Virus record (IMG/VR): IMGVR_UViG_3300037225_000166
Location: 1-54,893 of that record
DNA length: 54,893 bases
Direction: 5' to 3' (one strand)
Source of the DNA: a virus
A model generated the notes under the pieces. The model had not been told where the DNA came from. It saw only the letters and a program-made list of their open reading frames with translations, and did no database searches. The position numbers and the translations under genes are program-made. This document shows, piece after piece, positions 3,226 through 17,904 of the stretch (its first letter is position 1; each line of letters opens with the position of its first letter).

Positions 3226-3858
3226 ATGAATAGATTTAATGCTTATACTATTATTGCAGTTCTTATTTTGCTTGTAATTTTAATTTTCTCAATCCGGTCC
3301 TGCTCAAAAAACAAAAATCATGCAGGGGAGTTAAGCTATGAAAAATCTCAGCTTGTAATTGATACCGGAGTTTACAGGGATAACCTGGGTAAAGTTCACA
3401 GGGTTGTAAATAAAATTACAATTCAACGAAACACCTTACTAAGTAGTAACACAGAGTTATTGAGCAAAAATAAACTGCTTTTTGACATGGCGGAATATTA
3501 TAAAAGGTTATCAAAGAACAAAAATACAGGCACACTGATAGGAATAACAACCCAAACATCAAATACAGTTCCAATACCGGCACTTATAAAGATAAATGAT
3601 TCTTGTTTTTCAGGTCATCTGGACGATGGTTATTTGATTGGTGATTATATGCAGTGTACAAATACTCGTTATCTGGAATATAACATCTTTGATACTTTGG
3701 TGGGCTCAATCAATAACCGGATCAAAGAGCCTGTCTTCACATTTCATCCCTTTCATATCAAGCTATTCAATAGAACAGTGATTTACAAAGCTGATTTCAC
3801 TCTTAAGAATCCGAGATCGAAGATAAATTCGATTATTATAACGGATATTGTAAAATAA
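3226..3858 (+). CDS. Membrane-anchored spanin-like protein
   Basis: 210 residues. One N-terminal membrane segment (about 8-24) ends in RSCSKNKNH and is followed by a helical, coil-forming stretch (about 35-100) and a beta-rich C-terminus. Short N-terminal anchors with periplasmic coils are typical of inner-membrane spanins. It is the last gene of the lysis block. No separate lipoprotein partner was found. The call is structural and contextual. Confidence 0.55.
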   Translation: MNRFNAYTIIAVLILLVILIFSIRSCSKNKNHAGELSYEKSQLVIDTGVYRDNLGKVHRVVNKITIQRNTLLSSNTELLSKNKLLFDMAEYYKRLSKNKNTGTLIGITTQTSNTVPIPALIKINDSCFSGHLDDGYLIGDYMQCTNTRYLEYNIFDTLVGSINNRIKEPVFTFHPFHIKLFNRTVIYKADFTLKNPRSKINSIIITDIVK

Positions 3859-3861
3859 TAC

Positions 3862-3869
3862 TATCTTTG
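3862..3869 (+). promoter_or_regulatory. Promoter -7 box for the tmRNA
   Basis: TATCTTTG fits the Bacteroidota -7 consensus TAnnTTTG. The tmRNA helix strand begins 3 bases later, the same spacing seen between the box and the first structured base of the leaders at 4334, 6235 and 10148. Confidence 0.65.
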
Positions 3870-3871
3870 TG

Positions 3872-4124
3872 TTGTTATTTGAGTTTTTCTCTGGACGTGG
3901 GTTCGATTCCCACCATCTCCACAAGTATTGCCTACTTGGTTAACCAGTTACCTTAATACTGTAAGGCTTTGTCTGTTGAGCCCGAAATCAACAGTCTTTT
4001 TGGGGATGATTGGAATAGACAGGATAAGCGTTGATGATAACAAAGAATTGACACAGAATACAAAATGGCTGCTTAGTCAGTCATGAAACCCTCGATATAA
4101 GATATTGGGGGTTTTGCTTTTTAA
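3872..4124 (+). ncRNA. ssrA: Circularly permuted (two-piece) tmRNA
   Basis: tmRNA rescues stalled ribosomes and tags the unfinished peptide. The 3' half comes first. It has GGACG (3893-3897), a T arm with stem GTGGG/CCCAC (3897-3901/3909-3913) and loop TTCGATT, acceptor strand CATCTCC (3914-3920) and discriminator A3921. The 5' half follows 81 bases later: GGGGATG (4002-4008), then TTGGAATAGACAGG, like the tmRNA D region. GGGGATG pairs with CATCTCC over 7 bp, including G3.U70, the alanine identity pair. A second helix joins the halves (TTGTTATT 3872-3879 with GATAACAA 4036-4043), as expected for P2. The likely tag frame ends at TAG 4074 and reads QRIDTEYKMAA, with the usual Tyr-x-x-Ala-Ala end. 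CCA is not encoded. I see no room for pseudoknot PK1 before the tag. The resume codon is uncertain. Confidence 0.88.
4086..4122 (+). terminator. Rho-independent terminator of the tmRNA
   Basis: A 13-bp stem with G.U pairs (AAACCCTCGATAT 4086-4098 with ATATTGGGGGTTT 4102-4114) and a 3-base loop, followed by TGCTTTTT. It lies just after the tag stop codon. 4123-4298 holds nothing else I can identify. Confidence 0.8.
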
Positions 4125-4298
4125 GCTATTTTAAGCGTTTCTAAGCGTAGATAATTTCTGTCTATGTAAGTACTCAGTTCATAACTCAATCATTTAACCT
4201 TCATAACAGGGGTTTGTAAATTGATCTGTTTTCACTCCAAATAATATTCCCATTTTCAGGACAAAAATATTCCTGAATAAAAATAATTTGAAAATAAA

Positions 4299-4329
4299 TT
4301 TGTTTTTAACTACAAATGTAGTATATTTG
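4299..4329 (+). promoter_or_regulatory. Bacteroidota-type promoter (leader 1)
   Basis: TTTG (4299-4302), a 19-base spacer and TATATTTG (4322-4329) match the consensus -33/-7 pair of the primary Bacteroidota sigma factor. Transcription would start a few bases before the first leader arm at 4334. Confidence 0.75.
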
Positions 4330-6009: not shown

Positions 6010-6195
6010 ATGAAAAAACCACCATTTCAAGATTGCGTTAATTGTAAAAAATATATTGATTGTCTGGATGCTGACACCGTTCATAGTTCTGGTTGTGATG
6101 AGTTTGAACCGGAACAAAGCGATGATTATTTAACCGAATTTCGGGAAATGCCTGATAGGTGGCACGAAATGCAGGAAAATGGAAATTTAATTTAA
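6010..6195 (+). CDS. Small cysteine-rich protein (61 aa)
   Basis: Contains CVNCKKYIDC followed by a third pair partner in SSGCDEF, a spacing that suggests a zinc site. The C-terminus is acidic. It has its own promoter. Not recognised. Confidence 0.6.
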   Translation: MKKPPFQDCVNCKKYIDCLDADTVHSSGCDEFEPEQSDDYLTEFREMPDRWHEMQENGNLI

Positions 6196-6224
6196 TTATT
6201 TAACCATATTTCAATAAAATTACC

Positions 6225-6232
6225 TATATTTG
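6225..6232 (+). promoter_or_regulatory. Promoter -7 box (leader 2)
   Basis: TATATTTG in the context CCTATATTTGTATTGTCTA, which is repeated almost exactly at 10138. The leader arm starts 3 bases downstream. Confidence 0.7.
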
Positions 6233-6234
6233 TA

Positions 6235-6342
6235 TTGTCTAAGTGTCTAAATCTATGATTCAAAACATTAAATTTAACGCCCCCAAATGCAGCAACCCAC
6301 TAATCATGGATTGTAAGACCTTAGACAAGTTGCATGAGGGGG
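6235..6342 (+). promoter_or_regulatory. Structured 5' leader 2, A-B-A'-B' order
   Basis: A TTGTCTAAG (6235-6243) pairs with A' CTTAGACAA (6320-6328). B has two parts: CCCCC (6280-6284) with GGGGG (6338-6342), and ATGCAGC (6287-6293) with GTTGCAT (6329-6335), separated by an AA/GA internal loop. A' and B' touch with no gap. TTTTATTA follows, and the start codon is 17 bases after B'. The frame through the leader is open, so an N-terminal extension from 6255 cannot be excluded, but leaders 1 and 4 argue against it. Confidence 0.8.
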
Positions 6343-6359
6343 TTTTATTATTTAATAGT

Positions 6360-7013
6360 ATGAAAGTTATTTTAGATTTAGGCTACTACCTTAAATCAGG
6401 AACTGTTTACAAAGACCATTACAAATTATATGAATGCCCTTTTTGTAGTAACCCATTTATAACTTCAGCGAATCGAATAAATTCAGGCAATACCAAATCT
6501 TGTGGATGCAACAAATCTAATGCAATAAGAAAGGCACAAATTAAGCATGGAATGGCTAGTGCTAGGATAAATAAGATATTTAGAGGAATGAAAGATCGCT
6601 GTTTTAATTCAAATAGCCCAAATTTTAAAGATTACGGAGGTCGCGGAATTACTATATGTAATGAATGGTTAAATGATTTTATGGCTTTTTATAATTGGGC
6701 TACAAATAATGGATATGATGAAAAATTAACCATTGACAGAATCAATAACGATGGTAATTATGAACCTAATAATTGTAAGTGGGCCACTAAATTAGAACAA
6801 TGCAATAATCAAAGGTTAATTAAGTCTACTAATACATCTGGATTTGCTGGCGTTTGTTTTTGTAAAGAACATAATAAATTTAGAGCTTCATTAGTATATG
6901 ATAAAAAACGATATTCAATAGGATATTTTATCACTCCACAAGAAGCTGCAATTGCAAGAAATATTTTTATAATTAAAAATAAATTTCCACATAAATTAAA
7001 TGAAATAACATGA
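6360..7013 (+). CDS. HNH endonuclease with AP2-type DNA-binding domain
   Basis: 217 residues from ATG 6360. A zinc-ribbon start (YECPFCSNPF, KSCGC) is followed by the HNH core (YGGRGITICNEW, LTIDRINNDGNYEPNNCKW) and a C-terminal AP2-like module (TSGFAGVCFCKEHNKFRASL). Free-standing enzymes of this family are mobile endonucleases that nick or cut DNA. A paralogue with a paralogous leader lies at 10272. The start after the leader is preferred over the upstream ATG at 6255. It overlaps the next gene by 4 bases. Confidence 0.85.
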   Translation: MKVILDLGYYLKSGTVYKDHYKLYECPFCSNPFITSANRINSGNTKSCGCNKSNAIRKAQIKHGMASARINKIFRGMKDRCFNSNSPNFKDYGGRGITICNEWLNDFMAFYNWATNNGYDEKLTIDRINNDGNYEPNNCKWATKLEQCNNQRLIKSTNTSGFAGVCFCKEHNKFRASLVYDKKRYSIGYFITPQEAAIARNIFIIKNKFPHKLNEIT

Positions 7014-10086: not shown

Positions 10087-10137
10087 AGCCATGAAAGAAA
10101 AATATTTATTATTTCATCTATTTTGATTTAAAATACC

Positions 10138-10145
10138 TATATTTG
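10138..10145 (+). promoter_or_regulatory. Promoter -7 box (leader 3)
   Basis: TATATTTG, in the same CCTATATTTGTATTGTCTA context as 6225. Confidence 0.7.
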
Positions 10146-10147
10146 TA

Positions 10148-10254
10148 TTGTCTAGAAATGCAAGTTATGATTAATCAAATTAAATTTAACACCCCCGAAT
10201 GCAACAACCCACTAATCATGGCTTGTAAAACTCTAGACAAGTTGCATGAGGGGG
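10148..10254 (+). promoter_or_regulatory. Structured 5' leader 3, A-B-A'-B' order
   Basis: A TTGTCTAGA (10148-10156) pairs with A' TCTAGACAA (10232-10240). B has CCCCC (10192-10196) with GGGGG (10250-10254) and ATGCAAC (10199-10205) with GTTGCAT (10241-10247), separated by a GA/GA internal loop that could form tandem sheared pairs. Compared with leader 2, the changes keep pairing in A and turn a G.U into A-U in B. The start codon is 17 bases after B'. Confidence 0.82.
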
Positions 10255-10271
10255 TTTTATTTTTTAATAAG

Positions 10272-10934
10272 ATGAAAATGATTCAGGATTTGGGGATGCA
10301 GTTTGCAAACGAACAAAGCAAACAAAAACAACATTATGCAATATATGAATGCCCATTTTGCGGTAAACATTTTAAATGCTTAATTAACAATATAAAAAGA
10401 GGTTTAGTAAAATCTTGTGGCTGTAATAGATTTATAGCAATTGCTAAAAGCAGAACAAAACATAATTTGTGTAAAACAACTATTTATTATAGCTGGACAA
10501 ATATGAAATCAAGATGCTATAATGTAGCTGGGAAAAGTTATAAAGATTATGGTGAGCGTGGGATAACGGTATGCGATGAATGGAAGAACAGTTTTATTAA
10601 TTTTTATAATTGGTCTATAAAAAATGGTTATAGAGAAGGATTAACAATTGATAGAGAAAATAATGATAAGGGATATACTCCAGAAAATTGCAGATGGGTT
10701 ACAATAATTATTCAAGCAAACAACAAAAGAGTGATCCAATCTAATAATACTTCTGGTTTTAGAGGTGTGCGTTTCTATAAACGAGATAATAATTTCAGAG
10801 CTTTATTATATAGTAATAATAAACAAATTCTTATTGGCACATTTTCAACTGCTATCAATGCTGCGATTGCACGAAATGAGTATATAATTAAAAATAAATT
10901 ACCTCATCCATTAAATATAATTCCAACTATATGA
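10272..10934 (+). CDS. HNH endonuclease with AP2-type domain, paralogue of 6360
   Basis: 220 residues from ATG 10272. Same domain order as 6360: zinc ribbon (YECPFCGKHFKC, KSCGC), HNH core (YGERGITVCDEW, LTIDRENNDKGYTPENCRW) and AP2-like end (TSGFRGVRFYKRDNNFRALL). Promoter, leader and gene are all paralogous to the 6.2 kb unit, so the whole unit appears to have been copied or to have moved together. It overlaps the next start by 4 bases. Confidence 0.85.
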   Translation: MKMIQDLGMQFANEQSKQKQHYAIYECPFCGKHFKCLINNIKRGLVKSCGCNRFIAIAKSRTKHNLCKTTIYYSWTNMKSRCYNVAGKSYKDYGERGITVCDEWKNSFINFYNWSIKNGYREGLTIDRENNDKGYTPENCRWVTIIIQANNKRVIQSNNTSGFRGVRFYKRDNNFRALLYSNNKQILIGTFSTAINAAIARNEYIIKNKLPHPLNIIPTI

Positions 10935-14595: not shown

Positions 14596-15237
14596 ATGAA
14601 CACCTATTCAAAATTTATCCCAAATGTTTTTCTTGCTAAATGCAGCGAGCAACACGAAAAGGGTGAAACTATTGAGATTAAAACCAAATACGGCAATGAA
14701 CATGAGAATATTATTTTTAACCTGATCTATGAAAAAGATGGATTTTTCTTTTATTCGATAGTACGGGCTGATGGGTTTAATGTTCAGGAATGGGCAAAAC
14801 GTAAAGCTGAAAGACTTAGTAATGCTTCGTTAAATGCTGAAAAGAAAAGCAACCAATATTATGAAGCATCAAACGAGGGCAAAGACTTCTTATCACTTGG
14901 GGAGCCGATTAAGATAGGACACCACAGCGAAAAGCGACACAGAGCTTTAATAGAGCGAAATTCTAACAGGATGGATAAATGTGTAAGGTTTGGGAAAAAA
15001 GCCGAATCATACGAAAGTAGGGCGGAATATTGGTCTATAAAAGCCAACACAACAAACCTATCAATGCCTGATAGTGTAGAACTTTATGAGTTTGAACTTG
15101 AAAAAGCAAAAGCAAAGCATGAAGGATTAAAAAACGGAACTATCGAAAAGCGACATTCGTATTCTTTGGTGTATGCTAAGAAGGATCTGAATGAGATTAC
15201 AAAGAAGCTGGAAATTGCAAAAAGATTGTGGAAATAA
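14596..15237 (+). CDS. DUF3560-family protein
   Basis: 213 residues. The block EGKDFLSLGEPIKIGHHSEK followed by RHRALIERNSNRMDK is the conserved core of DUF3560, seen in phages and plasmids. The function is unknown. The rest is charged and helical. It has its own promoter and is followed by a terminator. Confidence 0.75.
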   Translation: MNTYSKFIPNVFLAKCSEQHEKGETIEIKTKYGNEHENIIFNLIYEKDGFFFYSIVRADGFNVQEWAKRKAERLSNASLNAEKKSNQYYEASNEGKDFLSLGEPIKIGHHSEKRHRALIERNSNRMDKCVRFGKKAESYESRAEYWSIKANTTNLSMPDSVELYEFELEKAKAKHEGLKNGTIEKRHSYSLVYAKKDLNEITKKLEIAKRLWK

Positions 15238-16011: not shown

Positions 16012-16185
16012 ATGGATAAAGTTAAATTCGATCCTAAAACCGACACACCTTGCACTCGTTTAAAATGTAAGGGCGTATTTGTCGGATCAAGAATGTGTTT
16101 AGCTTGTTCCTATTGCTATGATGTAAACAGGGAAGAAAATTATATTAGTTGTTTAAAAAAAGTAAAAAATTTTGTTCAAAGGTAA
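16012..16185 (+). CDS. Small cysteine-rich protein (57 aa)
   Basis: TPCTRLKCKGVF, MCLACSYCYDV and YISC give seven Cys, pointing to a metal site. ATG 16012 is preferred over an upstream in-frame start inside the hairpin. It overlaps the radical SAM gene by 14 bases. Not recognised. Confidence 0.6.
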   Translation: MDKVKFDPKTDTPCTRLKCKGVFVGSRMCLACSYCYDVNREENYISCLKKVKNFVQR

Positions 16186-16987
16186 AGTAATTTATAATCC
16201 GTCCGGGAAAGCTGCTGAATATAGCTATTGGGCTTGTAACTTTTATATTGGTTGTTCGAACAATTGTTCATACTGTTATCTAAAAAAAGGAATAACAGCC
16301 AAAGTTTTAGGAGGGAATAAACCAAAATTAAAATCATGTTTCAAAGATGAAAAACATGCTATTGAAGTATTTGAAAAAGAATTGATACAAAACAAATCAG
16401 AACTTCAAAAACATGGTTTATTCTTTTCATTTACAACCGATCCGGCATTAAAAGAAACATATAGATTAACAATAAAAGCTATCCATATTTGTATGGTTTA
16501 TGATATTCCTGTAAAGATATTAACCAAAAGTAAAATAACAGGATTTACGATGCATAACTGGGTTAATTTGGCATATCATAATAAATATAAAAATCTTATT
16601 GCAATAGGCAATACATTGACCGGGCTTGATGATCTTGAACCAAATGCAGCAACGAATAAAGAAAGGATATCTGGTTTAAAATGGTTGCATGATGATGGGT
16701 TCAAAACCTTTGCTAGTATTGAACCGATTATTGACATTGAAAGCTCACAAAAAATGATTGAACAGTCTTTGGAATATGTGGATTTATTCAAAATCGGTCT
16801 GAATAGTGGGCAAAAATACAATTCAAGAGAGTTACAAGAATTTTGGTTATGGTGTATTACTAATATCAAAACTCATATTTATTTCAAAGATTCATTTTTA
16901 AAAGCGATTGGCGTTGATGACAGAAATCTTATGAATGGAATATATTCCAATTGTGTAAACAGGGATTTTAATTTATTTAAACCATGA
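16172..16987 (+). CDS. Radical SAM protein (photoproduct-lyase-like)
   Basis: 271 residues from TTG 16172, the only standard start near the conserved N-terminus. NFYIGCSNNCSYCYLKK carries the CxxxCxxC iron-sulphur motif (C28, C32, C35), and the SFTTDPALK and IEPIID stretches fit the radical SAM barrel. Such enzymes split S-adenosylmethionine to make a radical. The phage form belongs near the spore-photoproduct-lyase-like group, but the substrate is unknown. Next to a nuclease and the DNA module, a role on DNA is inferred. Confidence 0.75.
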   Translation: MFKGKVIYNPSGKAAEYSYWACNFYIGCSNNCSYCYLKKGITAKVLGGNKPKLKSCFKDEKHAIEVFEKELIQNKSELQKHGLFFSFTTDPALKETYRLTIKAIHICMVYDIPVKILTKSKITGFTMHNWVNLAYHNKYKNLIAIGNTLTGLDDLEPNAATNKERISGLKWLHDDGFKTFASIEPIIDIESSQKMIEQSLEYVDLFKIGLNSGQKYNSRELQEFWLWCITNIKTHIYFKDSFLKAIGVDDRNLMNGIYSNCVNRDFNLFKP

Positions 16988-17403: not shown

Positions 17404-17904
17404 ATGTCAGAAATTAAAATGAATCCCGATTTATTAGCACTGTTTAACCGAGAAGTTCAGCTTGAAACAGCATCAAGTCAAATATACAGGGCAATGGCAA
17501 CCGTAGCAACACAGTTCGGTTATCCTGGATTTGCTTCATGTCTTTTAAAACAGGCGAAGGAAGAGCAAACCCATTCAGCGAAGTTCTCAGCATTCATAGA
17601 GCTTCATGGTGATCAGGTTGGATATGATCCTATTGAGGGTTATGAACCTCCTCAAGACTTATTGAGTATGTTTGTTGCTATTGTAGAACGTGAAAAACTG
17701 ATCAAGGATGCAATAAATGAGATAATTGACAAGGCAATCGAAGTAAAAGACTACGGATGCCTGAAAATGTTAAATTATTTTGCAAACAACCAGATCAAAG
17801 AAATCAATTTTGCCGATCAGGTCCGTAAACAGATCGAACTTTGTAAAGGGGATCAGGCAGGATTATTACATATTGATCATCAATTAGCTAAAAAGGGCAA
17901 ATGA
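17404..17904 (+). CDS. Ferritin (bacterial FtnA type)
   Basis: 166 residues, full length for a bacterial ferritin. Against E. coli FtnA the ferroxidase ligands all appear kept: E21 in QLETASS, E54 and H57 in KEEQTHSAKF, the second Glu of VEREKLIKDAINE, and Gln/Glu in NQIKEINFADQV. The C-terminal GLLHIDHQL matches the FtnA ending. Ferritins store iron as a mineral in a 24-subunit cage and limit oxidative damage. It sits between the DNA module and terminase, under its own promoter, and overlaps a zinc-finger gene by 4 bases. Probably taken from a host. Confidence 0.9.
   Translation: MSEIKMNPDLLALFNREVQLETASSQIYRAMATVATQFGYPGFASCLLKQAKEEQTHSAKFSAFIELHGDQVGYDPIEGYEPPQDLLSMFVAIVEREKLIKDAINEIIDKAIEVKDYGCLKMLNYFANNQIKEINFADQVRKQIELCKGDQAGLLHIDHQLAKKGK

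Follow-up and report, generated by a model that had tools for sequence, protein, structure and literature searches.

A Circularly Permuted tmRNA Gene in the Window

The stretch of phage DNA that was analysed (54,893 nucleotides, called the window throughout) contains a circularly permuted tmRNA gene at positions 3862–4122. The 3′ half comes first and is followed by an 80-nt spacer, the 5′ half, the tag, a stop-codon hairpin and a terminator. The P2 helix ends at the tag, and therefore a PK1 is impossible in the window. The explanation that we regard as probable is that the phage carries a gene for a two-piece, PK1-less tmRNA, which would act in ribosome rescue and tagging with the SmpB of the host during infection. 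The parts of the gene are listed here together with the evidence for them.

3862–3869, plus strand: −7 promoter box TATCTTTG (TAnnTTTG), from the sequence; the same box occurs in relatives
3870–3893, plus strand: 5′ strand of P2 (distal 3870–3879, proximal 3883–3893, bulge U3890), 19 pairs with 4020–4042
3897–3913, plus strand: T arm GTGGG-TTCGATT-CCCAC (sequence, RF04321, R1, fold)
3914–3921, plus strand: 3′ strand of the acceptor CATCTCC and discriminator A3921, 7/7 pairs with 4002–4008
3922–4001, plus strand: 80-nt intervening sequence between both acceptor strands (RF04321, R1), presumably excised
4002–4020, plus strand: 5′ strand of the acceptor GGGGATG and D-loop-like ATTGGAATAGAC (RF04321, R1)
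4020–4042, plus strand: 3′ strand of P2, leading straight into the tag (fold, pairing energy)
4041–4076, plus strand: tag frame QRIDTEYKMAA-TAG (sequence), with an in-frame TAA at 4038 before it and a Met-Ala-Ala end like that of relatives
4065–4084, plus strand: H5-type hairpin AUGGCUG-CUUAGU-CAGUCAU, whose loop holds the UAG stop (MFE and centroid structures)
4084–4122, plus strand: intrinsic terminator, a 15-bp stem followed by CTTTTT (terminator scan)

An earlier note, made from the sequence alone, had proposed the permuted order and a seven-base acceptor with G3.U70, and both were verified. The acceptor forms between CATCTCC (3914–3920) and GGGGATG (4002–4008), and the T arm is present. 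Also typical of a tmRNA are the tag frame ending in Ala-Ala and the stop within H5. CCA is not encoded, and A3921 is followed by CAA. The D-loop without a D stem follows the TGG..T.GAC pattern with TGGAATAGAC at 4011–4020. Its spacing is one nucleotide shorter, as in many relatives, and it is two bases off the class consensus (TTTGAC in the relatives for the ATTGGAATAGAC part).

Searches with covariance models supported the permuted order. The Rfam family RF04321 (tmRNA_permuted) matched 3890–4023 with 47.4 bits (threshold 47; E 2.7e-6 over the window) and was the sole Rfam family above threshold in the whole window. The model R1, which was built from 44 aligned members of the compact class described below with the window excluded, matched 3877–4034 with 64.3 bits (E 5.9e-16), its sole match in the window. 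The standard-order model RF00023 reached 25 bits on the 3′ half only, under its cut-off of 47. The beta_tmRNA model RF01850 scored 44.2 bits and did not reach its cut-off of 84. The minimum free energy structure of 3873–4122, folded in gene order, contains the tRNA-like domain (TLD), P2, the H5-type hairpin and the terminator (z −2.6). The predicted mature RNA of about 170 nt is the shortest member of the compact class. A near-identical contig (L156/L271; 99.98% over 10.3 kb) has the same tmRNA gene, unchanged. ARAGORN also called a permuted gene, at 3829–4288, with the tag VDNFCLCKYSVHNSII; this tag was rejected because it is located past the terminator at 4084–4122.

Phages insert into tmRNA genes and can bear pieces of their 3′ ends, and the weak RF00023 match on the 3′ half would fit a sequence that merely resembles a permuted gene, either by chance or as the captured end of a tRNA or tmRNA (attP). 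However, both halves, both P2 arms, the tag, the stop hairpin and the terminator are present, and R1 matched with the E value given above while RF00023 stayed at 25 bits. The covariation among relatives and the R1 match already refute such a chance resemblance or fragment, which is thus extremely improbable.

Terminator-like sites were more frequent than expected (two found vs 0.2 in shuffles). A terminator-like hairpin with TCTTTTT is situated in the spacer at 3973–3994, just 5′ of the coding piece, and it might reduce read-through or aid processing. Among the relatives such spacer sites were weakly above chance (9 vs 3.7), and they are not a class feature.

P2 Runs Into the Tag and Leaves No Space for PK1

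The P2 of the window has 19 bp and a pairing energy of −16.0 kcal/mol and lies in the register of the relatives. This shared register, which was also chosen by the minimum free energy fold, pairs 3870–3879 with 4033–4042 and, proximally, 3883–3893 with 4020–4029. An 8-bp helix between 3872–3879 and 4036–4043 had been proposed to join the halves. The complement does exist, but the shared register differs from it, and the proposed helix results when the same P2 arms pair in another register. It had also been noted that the tag starts almost directly after the joining helix and that there is no space for PK1. Both observations held, because only 0–4 nt separate P2 from the tag and the distance from GAC to the tag is 21–24 nt.

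The usual PK1 takes about 30 nt. In the relatives the gap between P2 and the resume codon has a median of 9 nt and a maximum of 20, and therefore PK1 does not fit there either. The median distance from GAC to the resume codon is 42 nt in the compact relatives and 66 nt in alpha-like phage copies. When the P2 partners of the relatives were swapped, their own partners paired better, both in the proximal part beside the TLD (z −7.9) and in the distal part beside the resume codon (z −5.6). When the arms of the window were tested alone and in free register, 23 of 76 unrelated arms paired equally well, which is not significant, and what supports its P2 is therefore the register together with the shared model. 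The promoter box of the window is closer as well, 26 nt upstream of GGAC vs 33–45 nt in relatives. Across the relatives, promoter distance and resume distance were not significantly correlated.

PK1 has been listed for all bacterial groups, while in Oenococcus oeni it is devoid of one of its two helices and in mitochondria the whole PK1 is absent (PMC1168896). An engineered hairpin can take the place of PK1 (PMC3968760). PK1 is thus usual in tmRNA, not strictly universal.

A Compact Class of Permuted tmRNA Genes

A set of 2.9 million viral contigs was scanned with degenerate patterns in which the acceptor, the T loop and the D-loop were only partly specified. Two groups were found. The well-known alpha-type group, to which the majority of the 107 stretches from the first scan belonged, has an encoded CCA and 'ANDE'-like tags. 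The compact group has TGGNTTTGAC D-loops, and CCA is encoded in 10% of it, vs 93% of the alpha-like group. Its tags include GKVIQMFxxPLRAVA, GEQVELAMAA and DNVINLNNATLRMAV and generally resemble GKVIxMF...AVA/MAA, its P2 extends almost to the resume codon, and PK1 is absent. After removal of redundancy 62 compact members were kept, so that the class comprises about 60.

The patterns had fixed GGGG, CTCCA and letters of the T loop, and therefore these columns prove nothing, while P2, acceptor pairs 5 and 6, tags and promoters were unselected. In the 44 aligned relatives, pairing across the permutation was found in 91.3% of cells (74.7% in shuffles), and 141 cells had two-sided changes (42 in shuffles). 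The two pattern-free acceptor positions were 100% paired with 41 two-sided changes, and two-sided changes also occurred at 6 of 7 P2 pairs. Sliding the partner by one column reduced pairing to about 50%. With its R1 score and a P2 in register, the window belongs to this class.

A pattern scan of genome contigs yielded three matches, two by chance in coding DNA and one a standard tmRNA (L161, Gastranaerophilales), and no compact permuted gene. R1 had no match on L157 and L158, two contigs that carry relatives of the ORF lying downstream of the tmRNA gene; the tmRNA gene is therefore optional and not fixed even in related phages.

Intact tRNA genes were observed within the spacers of permuted phage tmRNA genes in L211 (3674–3748), L256 (4786–4860), L264 (4462–4536) and L277 (665–737), three times tRNA-Ala and once tRNA-His. 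Likewise, the cyanophage-type contigs L166 and L179 (Asn) and L180 (Tyr) have tRNA genes within spacers. One case of a tRNA-Ala in a spacer had been described as unique (PMC11915505). These spacer tRNAs fit an excision by tRNA-processing enzymes.

The Resume Codon and Possible Functions

The resume codon is the weakest step of the proposed mechanism, and the exact codon is uncertain. Candidates are CAA at 4041 and AGA at 4044, both in frame, and AAG at 4043, out of frame. In relatives the resume context is UA-NNN|codon. Applied to UAACA|AAG of the window, the U(−5)A(−4) rule would select AAG AAT TGA (tag KN), in a frame shifted by one base from that of MAA, while A(−4) fits both in-frame starts. 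A start at CAA would yield QRIDTEYKMAA, and a start at AGA RIDTEYKMAA, with 10 codons like the GEQVEMAMAA group.

Gene order, TLD, P2, tag frame, H5, terminator and the conservation as a class are established by the analysis, and from them transcription, processing, charging and tagging of the two-piece tmRNA of the window are inferred as follows. The host RNA polymerase would start at the TAnnTTTG promoter near 3873 (the start is expected at about 3873–3876) and stop at 4122. RNase P and RNase Z of the host would excise the spacer, CCA would be added, and an acceptor piece of about 52 nt and a coding piece of about 121 nt would be held together by the acceptor stem and P2. The RNA could be charged by AlaRS through G3.U70 and enter stalled ribosomes with EF-Tu and SmpB, which is assumed to come from the host. 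Translation would resume at about 4041–4046 and add a short tag ending in MAA, so that the tagged protein would undergo proteolysis and ribosomes would be freed during infection. Several observations count against this explanation, namely the D-loop TGGAATAGAC, which departs from TGGNTTTGAC, the RF04321 score just 0.4 bits above threshold, the off-frame resume rule, the non-significant test of the free P2 arms and the terminator-like hairpin in the spacer.

The off-frame resume consensus and the divergent D-loop would also suit a decoy or inhibitor. In this case the charged RNA would occupy SmpB or stalled ribosomes, tag poorly because of its missing PK1 and poor resume site, and blunt trans-translation of the host. 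In E. coli, a CDS-less tmRNA form from phage DS6A acts as an inhibitor of the endogenous tmRNA (PMC11915505). In contrast, the tag frames of the relatives have stayed long, and their G/D-K/N-V-I start, Ala-rich end and resume context are conserved; the tag of the window ends in MAA, followed by a stop inside the H5 loop. A decoy is judged unlikely. It is still less likely that a formerly active tmRNA is drifting, with short arms, an altered D-loop and a one-base resume offset as signs of decay. The gene is indeed the shortest of its class and its RF04321 score is marginal, but all TLD pairs, the 19-bp P2, H5 and the terminator are intact, and both P2 arms have been shortened together with the promoter distance.

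Comparison With Known Systems

Two-piece tmRNAs are known from alpha, some beta, cyanobacteria and phages (PMC9004378; PMC11915505; PMC3968760). With the permuted tmRNAs of RF04321 (alpha, beta, cyano) the window shares the gene order, the 7-bp acceptor with G3.U70, the T arm, P2 and the Ala-Ala end of the tag. Unlike them, it lacks PK1 and an encoded CCA, and its GAC-to-tag distance is 21–24 nt vs a median of 66 nt in alpha-like phage copies. The two-piece tmRNA of Melnitz and pelagimyophages (PMC9004378) is likewise permuted and phage-borne, but it is of the alphaproteobacterial type, has a glutamine riboswitch nearby and belongs to another host phylum. Mitochondrial tmRNA and the CDS-less DS6A tmRNA are reduced and poor in pseudoknots like that of the window; in contrast to it they have no tag frame. 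Lengths of 230–400 nt have been given for tmRNA (PMC3968760), and the shortest tag-bearing tmRNA in 2005 had 250 nt (PMC1168896).

Compact permuted genes were also found in an isolate, Chryseobacterium phage MA9V-3 (PV245944; R1 65.9 bits, tag GNVIDINKYVAKLEVAA), and in the Crassvirales cr7_1, cr10_1, cr50_1, cr53_1, cr114_1 and cr272_1 (R1 scores of all seven 35.7–65.9 bits). These phages infect Bacteroidota and share the compact form with the window, while their P2 is longer and their tags are of the kind of GNVIDINKYVAKLEVAA. Six of the seven genes are annotated as SsrA only, and that of cr53_1 is not annotated. The published text on MA9V-3 says only 'tmRNA'; ORF 62 of this phage is annotated as ClpX, which unfolds proteins bearing the SsrA tag (PMC13120357). 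In Cellulophaga phages Calle and phi38:1 the tmRNA is of standard order.

The earlier note had held that the gene may be new. It is not new in kind, because permuted phage tmRNAs are known (PMC9004378) and copies annotated as SsrA exist in Crassvirales and a Chryseobacterium phage. In the literature searched, neither the PK1-less compact class nor permuted tmRNAs from Bacteroidota or from crAss-like phages were found described; the supplementary tables of PMC11915505 may list some of the latter. The compact form is likely under-annotated, because ARAGORN misplaces the tag and Rfam barely scores the gene.

It is conceivable, if somewhat doubtful, that Bacteroidota phages harbour a separate permuted lineage in which P2 runs into the tag, all pseudoknots are gone and the TLD, P2, tag and stop hairpin are enough for natural trans-translation; the form in the window, with its approximately 170 nt, would then be smaller than any other tag-bearing tmRNA seen. 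Among the pseudoknots of tmRNA, PK1 has long been regarded as nearly essential and is treated as the only one required. With a natural class devoid of it and widespread in phages of Bacteroidota, crAss-like gut phages among them, this requirement would become directly testable and structural studies would gain a minimal tmRNA. It would also raise the question why these phages bring their own tag into hosts that are expected to have a standard one-piece tmRNA.

Phage and Host Context

The window was verified to be a phage by genes for terminase, portal, baseplate hub and endolysin. The best named matches of terminase and hub were to Flavobacterium and Winogradskyella phages, which bears out the earlier assignment to a Bacteroidota phage. 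Helicase matches were too broad to name a host. TAnnTTTG, the −7 box of Bacteroidota, was present at a distance of 33–45 nt from the downstream GGAC in some 20 of the 62 relatives, compared with an expectation of 4.3 matches at any position of the upstream stretch, and the promoter of the window has no −33 TTG at the usual spacing. The promoter box and the isolates, rather than host-by-host assignment, point to Bacteroidota for most of the 62 contigs. Neither SmpB nor ClpP was found in the window, and therefore host factors are needed.

Upstream of the tmRNA gene lie a predicted endolysin and then a 210-aa ORF (ORFs 1884–2489 and 3226–3858). An 801-bp region of the window had no similar DNA in annotated phages. 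A full Bacteroidota promoter, TTG-N19-TATATTTG, is located at 4300–4329, just upstream of the next genes. The stretches 6190–6365 and 10104–10277 are 83% identical and overlap the beginnings of two ORFs, one for an HNH endonuclease and one with an AP2 domain, which are probably related homing-type genes. Further ORFs are ferritin-like (17404–17904), radical-SAM-like (16172–16987, below the Pfam cut-off) and DUF3560 (14596–15237).
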